From the IMG/VR virus record IMGVR_UViG_3300045009_000228, positions 1-30,212 of that record: a DNA stretch of 30,212 nt, one strand, 5' to 3'. The DNA is from a virus. This document shows positions 9,813 to 30,212 of the stretch, one piece after another; position 1 is the stretch's first letter, and each line of letters opens with the position of its first letter. Position numbers and translations under genes: made by a program. Below the pieces are notes generated by a model. The model did no database searches. It was not told where the DNA came from and worked only from the letters and a program-made list of their open reading frames with translations.

Positions 9813-11108
9813 TTATATAGTAAAATTAAGAATTATTGTTGAAGGGCTTTGTATAGGTTTAAATGATATATCAACAACTATTATATTTTGAGCTATAGAT
9901 GATTCGGAGTTATTCGATTCGTTGCAAATAACTCCATAAGAGTCTATTCCACCATCTAGCTGCACATTTTCGAGTAAAACATTTAATCTATTAGTTATTA
10001 ATTCTCTATTTTCTGGAGAATTTAATTCAAATCTGAATTCGTTCAAAATAAATTTACTATTTCTTACGATATAAGAATATGTGTTAGCATAAGTAAATGT
10101 TTGTTTTATTGTGTTTGAGGAAGCTGTATTTCCAGAAAAATCAGTTGATAAGAAATACTCTTTTCCATTTGGACCAGATACATTTAATATACAGTTTATT
10201 CCTCTATTTTGAGCAATCTTAAGTTCTGTTCCAGAATTAAATGTTATATCGACTGGTGTTTGTGGAATTATAGTTTCTGTAAATTTAATATTCGGTAAAT
10301 TTATTTTTGTAAAAATTTGATTTAAGACTTTACCATTTCTAAATCCAGCTGGGCTATTCCATGGATAATAAGAATAACTTCTTGCCATCATACCAGCTGC
10401 ATCACTTAGTAATGATACTAAAACATATGGACTATTACTGTATTCGGTGTCATCATTAATATTTTCATCGCCATAATATCTTTTTAATCTTTTAACTCCT
10501 CCTATTGTAAAAGTTAATTGATTGAAATCGGCATCGCTCAATTCTGTTCTAGCGTAAAAATCATCAAATTTATAATTTATATTTGTCTGATTATTTAAAA
10601 TATATAAATTTTCTAATGATCTAAATGAATTTTGATCGATAGACGCATTTAATAAAATTGGTATTTGTTTAAGTTTTATTTCTGAAATTAAATCCGAAGA
10701 AATTGTTGTCTTAATAGGATCATATACTAAATAATCCAAATCATATTTGGAAAAAACATCATAAATGTTACTTTCGGTAGAAGCATTTATCAAATAAATG
10801 TTATAATTATAATGAAGAGCATCTAAAATATAATTAAAATAAAAATCTATTTTTCTTATATTTGTTTTAGATGCTGTCGAAGATGTGTTATTTAATTCTT
10901 TAAGAAATACTTCTGAATCAGTTACCGACGCTCCTAGTTGGGTATAATCGGCATTGTTTATTAAATTTGTAAAATCGCTCACAGACTCCAAAATAACATG
11001 AGTGCTGGTTATTCCTAAAACATTGAATAAAAGAGAGTCGTAGATGAGAAATCCCCCATCTACGACTTTCTTTGAATCTATTTGCTTTATGGAATATGTA
11101 AAAGCCAT
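9813..11108 (-). CDS. Tail sheath protein paralog 1 (gp18 family)
   Basis: Contractile sheath protein, 431 aa, shorter than T4 gp18 (659). The sheath hallmarks are YPWNSPAGFRNGKVLN (around residues 248-263), equivalent to the PW-x-x-PAG-x-x-x-G motif of sheaths, and a C-terminal domain with the long helix ENRELITNRLNVLLENVQLD, then SYGVICNESNN and the exchange strand IIVVDISFKPIQ. The N-terminal half has no T4-like insertion domains. Its ATG overlaps the stop of the other sheath gene (TAATG), so the two are coupled and may be made in a fixed ratio. Compared with paralog 2 it has lost the usual N-terminal arm sequence and is more Asn- and Ile-rich. Confidence 0.82.
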   Translation of the reverse strand: MAFTYSIKQIDSKKVVDGGFLIYDSLLFNVLGITSTHVILESVSDFTNLINNADYTQLGASVTDSEVFLKELNNTSSTASKTNIRKIDFYFNYILDALHYNYNIYLINASTESNIYDVFSKYDLDYLVYDPIKTTISSDLISEIKLKQIPILLNASIDQNSFRSLENLYILNNQTNINYKFDDFYARTELSDADFNQLTFTIGGVKRLKRYYGDENINDDTEYSNSPYVLVSLLSDAAGMMARSYSYYPWNSPAGFRNGKVLNQIFTKINLPNIKFTETIIPQTPVDITFNSGTELKIAQNRGINCILNVSGPNGKEYFLSTDFSGNTASSNTIKQTFTYANTYSYIVRNSKFILNEFRFELNSPENRELITNRLNVLLENVQLDGGIDSYGVICNESNNSESSIAQNIIVVDISFKPIQSPSTIILNFTI

Positions 11109-12277
11109 TAAGCTTGAGTGAGGACAAATCTAAATGTAACTGTTTCAATTGTGTAATATGGTACGAATGAAATATCAATTATCAATTGTTTAGCATTGAT
11201 TACTGTATCTGTATTGTTTGTTTCATTGCATACTACAGTAAAGCTTCTAATTCCACTTCTAGATCTAATTCTATCTAAAATATTAACTACACTATTTGAT
11301 AGTGCTGTTCTAGTAGAAGAATTATTAACTTCAAACAATACTCCCTGTAGTAATGGTTTGATCGCTCTCTTGATGTGTAGAATTAGTCTTGAAATGCCTA
11401 TGTGCATTCTATCCGAATCTACTTGTTCTAAGGATGAATCTCCCATGACGAAGACTCTATCCGGATAACCATAGACTCCGCTCAAACTATTGATTCCATA
11501 GGTATCATTTAAAGAATCAATATTTGTTTCACTGAGTTTGGGTTCAAAGTTAGTGAAAGATAAGATTTCTCCCTTTCTAATTCCAGCTGGAGGATTCCAC
11601 GGGCCATATAGATTGTCCGATACAGCCATTAGACCAGAAACATCAGAACCTAAAAGTAAAGAAATTGTTCCGCTTGCTCCGTACATTCTATCTCTAGTTT
11701 TTCTTCCAATTATGCTGAAGAAATTCTCATCAATGCTTGTAGCTCCAGTGATTCCGGTGATACCATACATTGAATAGATTGCCAAGGTATTTGTTGGGTA
11801 TGAAGCAGAAATACCGCTATGATATTCAGCCGAAGATCCTAGAATACCAACACAATCTTGTCTCATTGCAACTAGACTAATTACGTCATTAAATTTGGAA
11901 TTATCTTCGCAGAAAACGCTATCAATTGATAGATTTGTGTTGTTTAGAGCAGTGGCTCCAGTAGCAGCAACCAAAATGCCACCATATTGCAAGTAATTTA
12001 GAGCTGAGTGTAATTCTCTGTCGTGAATAGTTCCACCACTAAAACCAGCACCGGAAGCAAATCCGGAGGAAACTCCACTCAAAACTGTAATATCAAATGT
12101 TGATAGAAGTTCATTTGGATTATTAAATATTTTGTAACCCAATTGAGTAGTGTCTGCCTGGGTAATTTTGTGGTACAATGAATATCCGCAAATAAAGGCT
12201 GATAGATGAGATGAAGCCTCTGCTTCAATTCCTGCTATGATAGGCGTTGAGTTTTCGAAAATGTTAATTGATGGCAT
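11108..12277 (-). CDS. 18: Tail sheath protein paralog 2 (gp18 family)
   Basis: Contractile sheath protein, 389 aa, first transcribed of two tandem sheath genes. It shows a typical sheath start (MPSINIFENSTPIIAGIEAE), the motif GPWNPPAGIRKGEILSF (residues about 227-243), the helix TALSNSVVNILDRIRSRSGI and the C-terminal strand QLIIDISFVPYYTIETVTF that makes the inter-subunit mesh. It is nearer the canonical sheath than paralog 1. It follows gene 17 by 6 bp with a GAGGAAT ribosome-binding site; a TATAAATA in the end of gene 17 may be its late promoter, as in the T4 17-18 arrangement. Whether both sheath proteins enter the same tail is unknown. Confidence 0.87.
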   Translation of the reverse strand: MPSINIFENSTPIIAGIEAEASSHLSAFICGYSLYHKITQADTTQLGYKIFNNPNELLSTFDITVLSGVSSGFASGAGFSGGTIHDRELHSALNYLQYGGILVAATGATALNNTNLSIDSVFCEDNSKFNDVISLVAMRQDCVGILGSSAEYHSGISASYPTNTLAIYSMYGITGITGATSIDENFFSIIGRKTRDRMYGASGTISLLLGSDVSGLMAVSDNLYGPWNPPAGIRKGEILSFTNFEPKLSETNIDSLNDTYGINSLSGVYGYPDRVFVMGDSSLEQVDSDRMHIGISRLILHIKRAIKPLLQGVLFEVNNSSTRTALSNSVVNILDRIRSRSGIRSFTVVCNETNNTDTVINAKQLIIDISFVPYYTIETVTFRFVLTQA

Positions 12278-27807: not shown

Positions 27808-28236
27808 GTGCCGTATAAAACAAAATTTTTACCAGAGCACATAGAAAAATATGTTGGAAATTCATCAAAAATATTATGCAAATCCTTATGGGAAAGAAAA
27901 CTTTGCAAGTATTTTGATGATAACGACTCCGTTATAAATTGGTGCTATGAGTGTTTAAAAATACCTTATCTGTCTCCAATAGACGAAAAAGTTCATATGT
28001 ATTTTCCAGATTTTGTTGTTAAGTTAAAAGATAAAAATGGAAAAGAACAAACGCTGATAGTGGAAGTAAAACCTTATAAACAAACTATTCTTCCAAAAAA
28101 TAAAAAAACAAAATCATTCAAAGAAGAAACTGCTAGATATTTGATAAATGAATCAAAATGGAAAGCTGCACAAAAATTATGCGAAGAAAATAAATGGCAG
28201 TTTAAATTATTAACAGAAAAAAATATATTCAAATGA
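27808..28236 (+). CDS. 4: Head completion protein gp4
   Basis: Needed in T4 to make packaged heads competent for tail joining. 142 aa (T4 gp4 has 150). It aligns along its length: MPYKTKFLPEHIEKYVGNSS (T4 MAYSGKWVPKNISKYRGDPK), SLWERKL, INWCYECLKIPY (T4 IAWGSETAVIPY), YFPDF, LIVEVKPYKQTILPK (T4 FFIEIKPKKETQPP) and ESKWKAAQKLCEENKWQFKLL (T4 TDKWKAAQSLAEKRGIKFRIL). E29, D68 and E86-x-K88 are spaced like a PD-(D/E)XK nuclease active site. The start is GTG, fixed by this alignment; there is no Shine-Dalgarno, and TATATATA lies 4 nt upstream. First gene of the rightward operon. Confidence 0.95.
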   Translation: MPYKTKFLPEHIEKYVGNSSKILCKSLWERKLCKYFDDNDSVINWCYECLKIPYLSPIDEKVHMYFPDFVVKLKDKNGKEQTLIVEVKPYKQTILPKNKKTKSFKEETARYLINESKWKAAQKLCEENKWQFKLLTEKNIFK

Positions 28237-28784
28237 CTCCAGAAGAATTAATACAAAAAATTTCTGATCATAATGGTATCCAAAGAAAAAATAGATTTTC
28301 TGTGAATTTTTCCTCAACTTGTGGAGGTGAAGATATTACTAGTAATGGCGCAGTGCCTGCAATATATGCCACCTTTGGACAAAGGGGAGTTGAATTAACT
28401 CCTGACAGAAACACCGGACCAGGAATTGGAAGAAATATTCCAACAAATCCAACATATGAAAGCGATAACGGATTATTAATAAGATTCCCGGTAGAACAAG
28501 ACTGGGCAACATATAAGATTATACAGGAATGGTTTAATAACTTAAGTTCTTTAAATGCTGGATTAAGCGGTAGAGTTACAGCCATTAAATTTTATGATGA
28601 TTGTGCTAAAAAAGGAAAAGTAATTCTTAACGCATTGACATACAATGGGAATGTAGCATGTAAGTTTACATTCAACGAAGCATTTCCAGCAGTTGTTCTC
28701 CCATTAGAATTTGACTCAGAACCTAATTCTGGGAACTCAACATATGATGTTATTTTTAATTTTAGGAAATATGTCGTGGAGTAA
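28233..28784 (+). CDS. Tail-tube-like protein in the gp4 operon
   Basis: 183 aa. The N-terminus LIQKISDHNGIQRKNRFSVN (6-25) carries the same RKNRF-x-V arm as the three tandem tubes. RFPVEQDWATYKIIQEWFNN occupies the place of 'F-V-D-E-x-x-x-x-Y-K-x-I-x-x-W', and the C-terminal VVLPLEFDSEPNSGNSTYDV then FNFRKYVV is a tube-like last strand pair. It is more distant than the trio and rightward, overlapping the gp4 stop (ATGA) and followed by a gp26-like gene. It may form a specialised ring, for example a baseplate-proximal tube initiator equivalent to gp54, while 27006-27782 would be gp48. That division is an inference. Confidence 0.65.
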   Translation: MTPEELIQKISDHNGIQRKNRFSVNFSSTCGGEDITSNGAVPAIYATFGQRGVELTPDRNTGPGIGRNIPTNPTYESDNGLLIRFPVEQDWATYKIIQEWFNNLSSLNAGLSGRVTAIKFYDDCAKKGKVILNALTYNGNVACKFTFNEAFPAVVLPLEFDSEPNSGNSTYDVIFNFRKYVVE

Positions 28785-28810: not shown

Positions 28811-29497
28811 ATGAATTTTAAACGAAGATATCCAGAATATTCTTGTGTGTTACCAAGTAAAAATAAAGAAGTTTTCTTCAGACCATTTTTAGTATCAGAC
28901 GAAAAATCTTTACTATTAATTAAAGAAGAAAAAAATACCAGAATAATTTTTAGAACAATTTTGGATTTATTAGAAAATTGTTTTAAAAATATAGATTCAA
29001 AAGAATTGACTTTACAAGATATGGAATATCTTTTCTGTAGTCTTAGATCGAAGTCAATAGGAGAAACAGTTAAAGTAAACTTTACATGTCCTTCAACAAA
29101 AGAAAATATAGAAACAAAAGTTGATCTATCAAAAATAGCAATTGTAGCTGGAATCAAAGAAAAAGAAATATCTTTGGATGAATCTACAAAAATTATATTA
29201 AAAGAGCCAAAAGTATATAAAATTTTAGAAATGAATGGAGATTTTGATACAAAACATTTCCTAAAAGCATCGATATCTAAAATTTATACAGAAGAAAATG
29301 TTCTTGGATGTGATGATATTAGTGAAGAGATTGTAGATCAACTTTTATCAAATTTAACAATTTTTGAATACGAAAAAATAAAATTATTTGTCAATGGATT
29401 ACCAAAAATAACATCAATAATTAGATATTACACAAAAGATGGAATAGAAAAAAGCACAAAATTGGAGGGTATTCTCAATTTTTTTACACATGCCTGA
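28811..29497 (+). CDS. 26: Baseplate hub/assembly chaperone, gp26-like (short product)
   Basis: 228 aa (T4 gp26 has 208). Looks like the T4_baseplate family (gp26): MNFKRRYPEYSCVLPSKNKE opening with the 'F-x-P-x-x-x-x-S/D-E-K-x-L-L' piece FRPFLVSDEKSLLLIKEE (23-40), a helix with DLLENCFKN, LTLQDMEYLFCSLRSKSIGE (66-85), and VNFTCPSTKENIETKVDLSK. The protein is helical and charged, as expected for a chaperone rather than a structural ring. Good GAGGTAATT ribosome-binding site. Its last codons contain a T7 slippery run, and the downstream -1 frame encodes a conserved-looking extension, so this is probably the unshifted product of a frameshifted gene. Confidence 0.82.
   Translation: MNFKRRYPEYSCVLPSKNKEVFFRPFLVSDEKSLLLIKEEKNTRIIFRTILDLLENCFKNIDSKELTLQDMEYLFCSLRSKSIGETVKVNFTCPSTKENIETKVDLSKIAIVAGIKEKEISLDESTKIILKEPKVYKILEMNGDFDTKHFLKASISKIYTEENVLGCDDISEEIVDQLLSNLTIFEYEKIKLFVNGLPKITSIIRYYTKDGIEKSTKLEGILNFFTHA
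29479..29485 (+). promoter_or_regulatory. T_TTT_TTT slippery heptamer (-1 frameshift site)
   Basis: Seven T's placed in the gp26 frame as AAT-TTT-TTT, so the phase T_TTT_TTT is exactly that of a simultaneous-slippage -1 site. The gp26 stop is 9 nt further on. A weak bulged hairpin (GTTA/TAAC and CTTT/AAAG pairs, 29509-29531) follows about 23 nt after the heptamer. No strong stimulator is visible. Confidence 0.65.
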
Positions 29498-29688
29498 CTC
29501 ACAATAATGTTATTTCTTTTTACAAAGTAACACATTTTTTGAGCACAGGCGCAAATATTTCTATAAGCGAATTAGAATCATTAATACCATGGGAAAAAGA
29601 TGTTTATATGCTACAGCATAAGATTTGGTTAGAAGATCAAGAAAAGAAAGCAAATGAAAGACGAAACACCCAACATAAACTATACTAA
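29485..29688 (+). CDS. -1-frame extension of the gp26-like gene (tail-assembly-chaperone fusion)
   Basis: Sixty-seven codons open in the -1 frame relative to gp26, with no ATG or supported start until far inside and no Shine-Dalgarno. Read after slippage at the T7 run, the fusion would be about 292 aa. The extension begins YTCLTHNNVISFYKVTHFLS and contains ISISELESLIPWEKDVYML (25-43), then a charged helix WLEDQEKKANERR. The 'L-x-x-x-IPWE-x-x-x-Y' motif is typical of the C-terminal part of tail-assembly chaperones and of T4-like gp26/gp51-region proteins in related phages. It overlaps the next start by 35 bp. A sequencing error in the T-run is the alternative: it would make this simply the C-terminus of gp26. 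Confidence 0.65.
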   Translation, partial: YTCLTHNNVISFYKVTHFLSTGANISISELESLIPWEKDVYMLQHKIWLEDQEKKANERRNTQHKLY

Positions 29689-30212
29689 TTTTGACTTTTT
29701 TAATATTGATTTTATGGTTCCAGCTCCAGTTCCAACGGGATCAAACGAATATTCTGATTTTTTAGAATCTTCTTCCCAAACAGATTTAAATAATAATCCA
29801 GAAGAACAAACACAAGAAATTGAAACTGTAGATATACCAGATACAAATTATTCTAGCCTAACTACAATAGAAACAAAAAACTCAGAAGAACAATCCAATA
29901 GTAATACAATAGAATCGGCTGTAGATCTTTTACCGCCACAAGAAAATGAAAGTGAACAACCTTCTACTATTGATTTGTTACCCCAAGAAGATAGTCAGGA
30001 AGTAGAACAAGTTTCTACAGTAGATCTACTTCCACAAGAAGATAGTCAGGAAGTAGAACAAGTTTCTATTATTGATTTGTTACCCCAAGAAGATAGTCAG
30101 GAAGTAGAACAAGTTTCTATTATTGATTTGTTACCCCAAGAAGATAGTCAGGAAGTAGAACAAGTTTCTATTATTGATTTGTTACCCCAAGAAGATAGTC
30201 AGGAAGTAGAAC
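29654..30212 (+). CDS. Acidic repeat protein, 5' part; candidate tape-measure position
   Basis: The frame opens at ATG 29654 after a purine-rich AAGAAAG and is still open at the window end (186 codons). It starts MKDETPNINYTNFDFFNIDF, with an acidic, Gln/Ser/Asn-rich stretch up to about residue 85, then 17-residue repeats of the type IDLLPQEDSQEVEQVSI. No known domain is visible. After a frameshifted tail chaperone, tailed phages usually code the tape-measure protein (T4 gp29 equivalent), so this is a positional candidate. An acidic repeat array is not typical of tape measures, so an unrelated virion or decoy protein is equally possible. It overlaps the preceding reading frame by 35 bp. Confidence 0.65.
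   Translation, partial: MKDETPNINYTNFDFFNIDFMVPAPVPTGSNEYSDFLESSSQTDLNNNPEEQTQEIETVDIPDTNYSSLTTIETKNSEEQSNSNTIESAVDLLPPQENESEQPSTIDLLPQEDSQEVEQVSTVDLLPQEDSQEVEQVSIIDLLPQEDSQEVEQVSIIDLLPQEDSQEVEQVSIIDLLPQEDSQEVE
29921..30212 (+). repeat. 51-bp tandem repeat array running off the window
   Basis: Units start at 29969, 30020, 30071, 30122 and 30173 (last cut by the window end). A degenerate 48-bp unit at 29921-29968 precedes them. The three last units are identical where visible; the second (30020) differs at a few synonymous-looking positions. The period of 17 codons keeps the reading frame. Confidence 0.96.

Follow-up and report, generated by a model that had tools for sequence, protein, structure and literature searches.

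The window, by which we mean the whole stretch of DNA analysed here, covers positions 1-30,212 of IMG/VR record IMGVR_UViG_3300045009_000228, a 30-kb fragment of an uncultured T4-like phage. Directly downstream of a tail-tube-like gene (Table 1), it encodes a gp26-like protein that accounts for the one PF12322 match within these 30212 bases. The match (E=1.2e-43, 149.8 bits against a curated cut-off of 24.5) aligns residues 8-225 of the protein with positions 2-218 of the 219-position profile, and residues 6-226 match phrog_150 (E=3.5e-44). The open reading frame (ORF) ends in AAT TTT TTT ACA CAT GCC TGA, with the stop codon TGA at 29495-29497. As the preliminary description had stated, this end contains a T_TTT_TTT heptamer in slippery phase 9 nt upstream of the stop codon. 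The -1 frame, already open from 29425, indeed continues for 67 codons past the slip to a stop codon at 29686-29688, so that the predicted fusion is 292 aa long.

Table 1. Features in and around the gp26-like gene of the window.
Feature	Position	Strand	Basis
Tail-tube-like gene, directly upstream of the gp26-like gene	28233-28784	+	phrog_45 tail tube, E=8.9e-14
gp26-like gene, short form (TAC-N), 228 aa	28811-29497	+	PF12322, phrog_150, fold
GGAGG, Shine-Dalgarno-like, ends 10 nt 5' of the heptamer	29464-29468	+	spacing and codon bias
Slippery heptamer T_TTT_TTT	29479-29485	+	X_XXY_YYZ phase; conserved
-1 extension with stop codon, 67 residues past the slip; gp51-like C-terminal domain (TAC-C)	29485-29688	+	phrog_634
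Stem-loop, starting 6 nt 3' of the heptamer	29492-29550	+	z=-3.95, pairing in nearer relatives

A search with the -1 frame gave a match to phrog_634, annotated as 'baseplate hub assembly catalyst' (gp51), with E=1.2e-14 over positions 53-119 of 121, and a weak one to the C-terminus of phrog_150 (E=0.0028). The IPWE-x-x-x-Y motif described for the extension is present as IPWEKDVY. The extension was also said to have no credible start of its own, and in the window we found only a TTG at 29539 and an ATG at 29608 when searching for ATG, GTG and TTG, both of them inside the conserved domain.

A chance test was made with 32 of the 58 ORFs of the window, short, overlapping and antisense ORFs and the cut ORF at 29654 being omitted. 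In the 9644 codon pairs of these 32 ORFs we counted 94 X_XXY_YYZ heptamers in phase, with A or T as Y, and at two of the 94 the -1 frame outlasts the stop codon by at least 30 codons. One of the two is in the gp26-like gene. The other is an AAAAAAT three codons before the stop of a gp4-like head-closure gene (27808-28236), where the -1 frame enters the next gene, and is probably due to chance.

Conservation of the heptamer and the open -1 frame

A DNA-level search of phage records with the extension gave no match, and relatives were therefore compared at the protein level. The gp26 of the window matched 588 phage records, the best-ranked named phage being 34.1% identical to it across 96% of its length. 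We compared 131 loci: 23 of the window group (the window included), 80 contigs resembling cyanophage P-SSM2 and 28 others. The 23 window-group records represent 15 distinct genes, with identities down to 48-50%. Of 570 confirmed P-SSM2-like contigs the best 80 were used; at 74-100% identity to P-SSM2 gp26, they form a narrow sample. The 28 others are one further locus (L122) and 27 named phage records, hand-picked for diversity from sets of 588, 514 and 732 matching records. A partial locus covering 63 residues (L008) was omitted from all counts, and a protein query from Vibrio phage D527 yielded no confirmed relative.

An in-phase T_TTT_TTN combined with an open -1 frame was found in all 23 loci of the window group, all 80 P-SSM2-like contigs and 26 of the 28 others, 129 of 131 in total, so the alignment across T4-like relatives proposed in the preliminary description shows both features to be conserved. 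The heptamer lies 0-3 codons upstream of the stop codon, and the -1 frame runs off the contig in three of the 80 P-SSM2-like cases. Phage RL2RES retains T_TTT_TTG although its second Phe has become Leu, showing that the heptamer survives an amino acid change. Furthermore, the T run is kept at loci with 50-53% GC (RL2RES, DLP6, Mendera and phiM7).

The 15 distinct window-group genes have no synonymous divergence (0.00) at codons -1, 0 and +1 and a value of 0.01 at codon -5, compared with 0.48-0.65 for codons -4 to -2 and an upstream mean of 0.28. In the P-SSM2-like set codons -1, 0, +1 and -5 have values of 0.06, 0.00, 0.00 and 0.08; codons -4 to -2 are at 0.49-0.76, and the mean is 0.35. The latter set is the better test, since it is larger and several other codons of the window group are also at 0.00.

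The canonical heptamer is missing from Klebsiella phage 0507-KN2-1 and Vibrio phage D503 (loci L140 and L142). At the corresponding place these read ATT TTC and CTT TTC, respectively, and their -1 frames run 54 and 59 codons past the stop codon as an open extension with a PWH motif. As neither has an X_XXY_YYZ heptamer, any shift there must use another site.

Elements flanking the slippery site

The GGAGG is found at the same 10-nt spacing in 13 of the 15 distinct window-group genes, the other two having neither GGAGG nor GAGG. Codon -5 is GAG in 13/13 of the distinct window-group genes with Glu at that position, whereas only 16 of the 298 other Glu codons of these genes are GAG. The distinct P-SSM2-like genes have GAG at codon -5 in 71 of 74 cases, against 392 of 1606 Glu codons elsewhere. 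GGAGG or GAGG is present in 71/74 distinct P-SSM2-like genes and in 7 of 25 other distinct genes, and absent from the remaining 18. A passage in PMC5009743 gives 9-14 nt as the spacing at which Shine-Dalgarno (SD) sequences stimulate -1 frameshifting, and an element at 10 nt is thus within that range. These data fit a role of the GGAGG as a frameshift stimulator, a role that is supported in part of the loci and is not universal.

Downstream of the heptamer, positions 29492-29496 of the window pair with 29546-29550, and 29498-29501 with 29540-29543. Eight of the ten distinct window-group sequences form 8-9 of these nine pairs, whereas the two most distant ones (seven records, L034-L040) form four. 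The pair count covers 16 of the 23 window-group records (eight distinct sequences), without L034-L040, and on these same sequences, from which the structure was derived, 98.6% of cells are paired, compared with 20.8-52.8% when the structure is slid. Two stem pairs have changed on both sides, and the covariation score was reached by 20 of 500 shuffles. Fold z-scores, which cover 32 of the 51 loci of the first locus list, have a mean of -2.07, with 14 loci below -2 and 18 at -2 or above. A P-SSM2-type hairpin pairs in 93.6% of cells over 36 distinct sequences (26.9-49.8% when slid); since one pair only has changed on both sides, its support is weak. The stem-loop of the nearer window-group relatives fits a frameshift signal, again supported and not universal.

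An upstream SD, a heptamer and a downstream stem-loop are also combined in Escherichia coli dnaX, as outlined in PMC5009743. The two differ in outcome and in sequence: the shift in dnaX leads to early termination, whereas in the window it would give a longer protein, and the slippery bases are A in dnaX and T in the window. The GGAGG, the stem-loop and the two-gene arrangement of T4 described below go beyond the preliminary description.

Origin of the extension

The arrangement strongly suggests that one gene gives rise to a TAC-N/TAC-NC pair by -1 ribosomal frameshifting, a reading that we consider very probable from the sequences. The majority of ribosomes would stop at the TGA and release the 228-aa TAC-N (gp26), and a minority would slip on T_TTT_TTT and continue to the 292-aa TAC-NC, in which gp26 carries the gp51 C-terminal domain. 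The slip would be aided by pairing of the GGAGG with 16S rRNA 10 nt upstream and by the stem-loop 6 nt downstream. The slippage itself, its efficiency and the binding partners of the products are what we infer from this arrangement. At the sequence level, both the -1 frameshift architecture and the assignment to gp26/gp51 put forward in the preliminary description hold, given the PF12322 and phrog_634 matches and the 129 of 131 loci.

The extension could instead be a separate small gene, gp51, with a start of its own and translational coupling at the gp26 stop; we regard this as unlikely, and it is the best of the alternatives. The preliminary description had taken a separate gene with its own start in related phages as evidence against a frameshift. 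On this point annotation went against a frameshift, as 21 of the 27 named records give the extension a small ORF of its own (gp51 or baseplate hub assembly in 13, hypothetical in 8). The slippery site spoke for a frameshift: 25 of the 27 have T_TTT_TTN ahead of the extension, which would be reached by the same -1 shift. Candidate starts do exist in relatives. Among the P-SSM2-like contigs the first start is an ATG at +8 past the heptamer in 74 of 80 and a GTG at +2 in the other six, and the ATG at +8 in the -1 frame recurs in 6 of the 28 other loci. SD sequences near gene ends can also serve coupling, according to a passage in PMC5009743.

The position of the starts argues against a separate gene. 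The first ATG, GTG or TTG of the -1 frame lies anywhere from +17 to +122 past the heptamer in the 23 window-group records, with the heptamer constant, and separate initiation is therefore very unlikely in this group. It lies between +2 and +56 in the 26 other heptamer-bearing loci, save for Nitratidesulfovibrio phage SRB7757 (L141), whose extension has no ATG, GTG or TTG at all and is a clean case against separate initiation. The first candidate in the window is the TTG, 53 nt past the heptamer, followed by the ATG, and use of either would cost at least 17 residues of the conserved domain. The distance from the GGAGG, about 25 nt for the +8 ATG and 70 nt for the window TTG, is large for initiation, and in P-SSM2 the +8 ATG sits within the predicted stem. 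Moreover, a separate piece would not yield a full-length form such as T4 gp51. As the separate starts found in many relatives have no constant place, the frameshift reading stands. In the P-SSM2-like phages, with their ATG at +8, separate initiation may occur.

The small ORFs named 'gp51' or hypothetical in public records of cyanophages and of Vibrio, Stenotrophomonas and rhizobial phages are annotated with differing starts, and in some records, for example those of S-CAM1 and Aeh1, the extension is unannotated. These ORFs resemble frameshift extensions that have been left unjoined.

Transcriptional slippage on the T run would produce mixed mRNAs, with the -1 frame read by standard decoding. 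The homopolymer of seven T's in the window group would suit such slippage, but in the 80 P-SSM2-like loci the run consists of six T's and then a C, with the slippery phase kept, and a polymerase needs neither an SD-like element at ribosomal spacing nor a downstream stem-loop. We consider this highly improbable. A sequencing or assembly error that splits one long ORF, for which only the general risk at homopolymers speaks, is refuted: the check on T-run length that the preliminary description had suggested found exactly seven T's in 23/23 window-group records, which are separate metagenome contigs, isolate genomes, P-SSM2 and S-SM1 among them, have a matching site, and the heptamer with its -1 frame recurs in 23/23, 80/80 and 26/28 loci of the three sets.

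Relation to T4 genes 26 and 51 and to tail assembly chaperones

T4 gp51 matches phrog_150 at positions 13-280 as well as phrog_634 at 2-103, whereas T4 gp26 matches phrog_150 at no more than positions 14-235. We aligned the fusion with the proteins of three T4-type phages, namely T4, Klebsiella phage VAC36 and Aeromonas phage AhFM11. T4 gp26 ends just past the FF of the shift site, and gp51 of all three phages aligns on through the extension. T4 gp51 is homologous over the whole fusion, its C-terminus aligning with the extension of the window. Gp26 of T4 and VAC36 reads GAG TTC TTT at the shift site, with no heptamer, and in AhFM11 the ORF at the gp26 position lacks a terminal FF. In these three phages the slip site is thus lost where the long gene is separate, which agrees with the prediction of the frameshift model. 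T4 gp26 is the counterpart of the short form and gp51 that of the long form; T4 differs in that genes 26 and 51 are separate and divergent, the slippery codons have been lost and gene 25 occupies the -1 frame behind gp26.

An AlphaFold model of the gp26-like protein (24 sequences, mean pLDDT 87.1) was compared with known structures. VIA-align ranked 3fgx first (Z 8.2, residues 4-93), a structure which we take to be a phage tail assembly chaperone (TAC), followed by the HK97 tail assembly chaperone 2ob9 over residues 1-84 (Z 6.7, under 8; rmsd 3.6, 80 aligned), and Z fell to 4.0 in the next row. A Foldseek search against the PDB returned nothing significant (best E 0.36), and one against BFVD returned 56 matches with E <=0.001, the best named among the matches listed being baseplate hub proteins. 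In the model the N-terminal domain resembles the TAC fold, as in 2ob9, and the protein differs from those of lambda and HK97 by an extra domain past residue ~85. Sequence comparison establishes the frame, the slippery site, their conservation, the homology to T4 gp26 and gp51 and the TAC-like N-terminal fold. The poly-T slippery sequence is unlike that of lambda, which is GGGAAAG. A short protein with a -1 frameshift extension is shared with lambda gpG/gpGT, of which PMC5009743 states that both forms bind the tape measure protein, are absent from mature virions and occur in a crucial ratio. By analogy with this lambda pair, TAC-N would cover the tape measure protein, and the C-terminal domain of the less abundant TAC-NC would serve to bring in tail tube subunits.

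Passages in PMC3004832 count both gp26 and gp51 among the hub assembly chaperones and describe gp51 as required for assembly and not present in the particle, which fits the chaperone reading. The same source places gp26 in the T4 hub from genetic studies; this does not fit a pure chaperone, unlike the virion-absent gpG. Gp51 of cyanophages and marine vibriophages lacking the first ~200 residues was noted by Sullivan et al. 2010 (PMC3037559), without an explanation in the passages concerned.

The idea that gp26/gp51 are the counterpart of the tail chaperones of long-tailed phages, raised in the preliminary description, is right and is not new. Frameshifting is reportedly conserved in several T4-like groups, T4 itself being said to use genes 26 and 51. 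PolyT -1 signals in T4-like TAC-N genes are mentioned in PMC12846349, which cites Vladimirov, Gautam and Davidson (2022, Virology 566:9-15), and PMC10885494, citing the same work, mentions that in some T4-like phages a short TAC gene is accompanied by a long, fused one. The strategy is extended in PMC12846349 to Vandenendeviridae and, by motif, to Andersonviridae. As the central idea was published in 2022, the surprise is limited. The window group follows the strategy of the TAC-N/TAC-NC genes attributed to Vladimirov et al. 2022 in these sources and differs in being uncultured, with a best-ranked named phage as distant as given above. Among the titles and abstract openings listed, nothing was found on frameshifting in cyanophage gp26. 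The window is an additional uncultured phage with the known T4-like TAC frameshifting, and the SD-like element and stem-loop may be new detail on it.

We lean slightly towards the speculation that a dnaX-like cassette, consisting of an SD 10 nt upstream, T_TTT_TTN and a stem-loop 5-6 nt downstream, occurs in several lineages outside the T4 group, is selected at the nucleotide level and sets the TAC-N:TAC-NC ratio, the T4 branch having instead undergone gene duplication and loss of the slippery codons. The short cyanophage 'gp51' ORFs would then be the unjoined ends of a long gp26. The data suggest joining the gp26 and gp51 entries in many public phage records. Furthermore, they add an uncultured T4-like group to the phages with chaperones made by frameshifting and provide a ready test set for what determines the ratio of short to long form, T4 with its two genes being the natural comparison.

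The end of the -1 frame is overlapped by ORF 29654-30212, which runs off the window and occupies a place that would suit a tape measure gene. It gave no useful family match and is not recognisable as a tape measure protein. The ORF contains 5.2 copies of a 51-bp tandem repeat, encoding a 17-aa DLLPQE repeat. Its homologue in locus L144 is 441 aa long (10844-12169), and the equivalent position in locus L160 holds a 224-aa gene without DLLPQE repeats. Both the L144 homologue and the L160 gene encode SPPxWR near the C-terminus.
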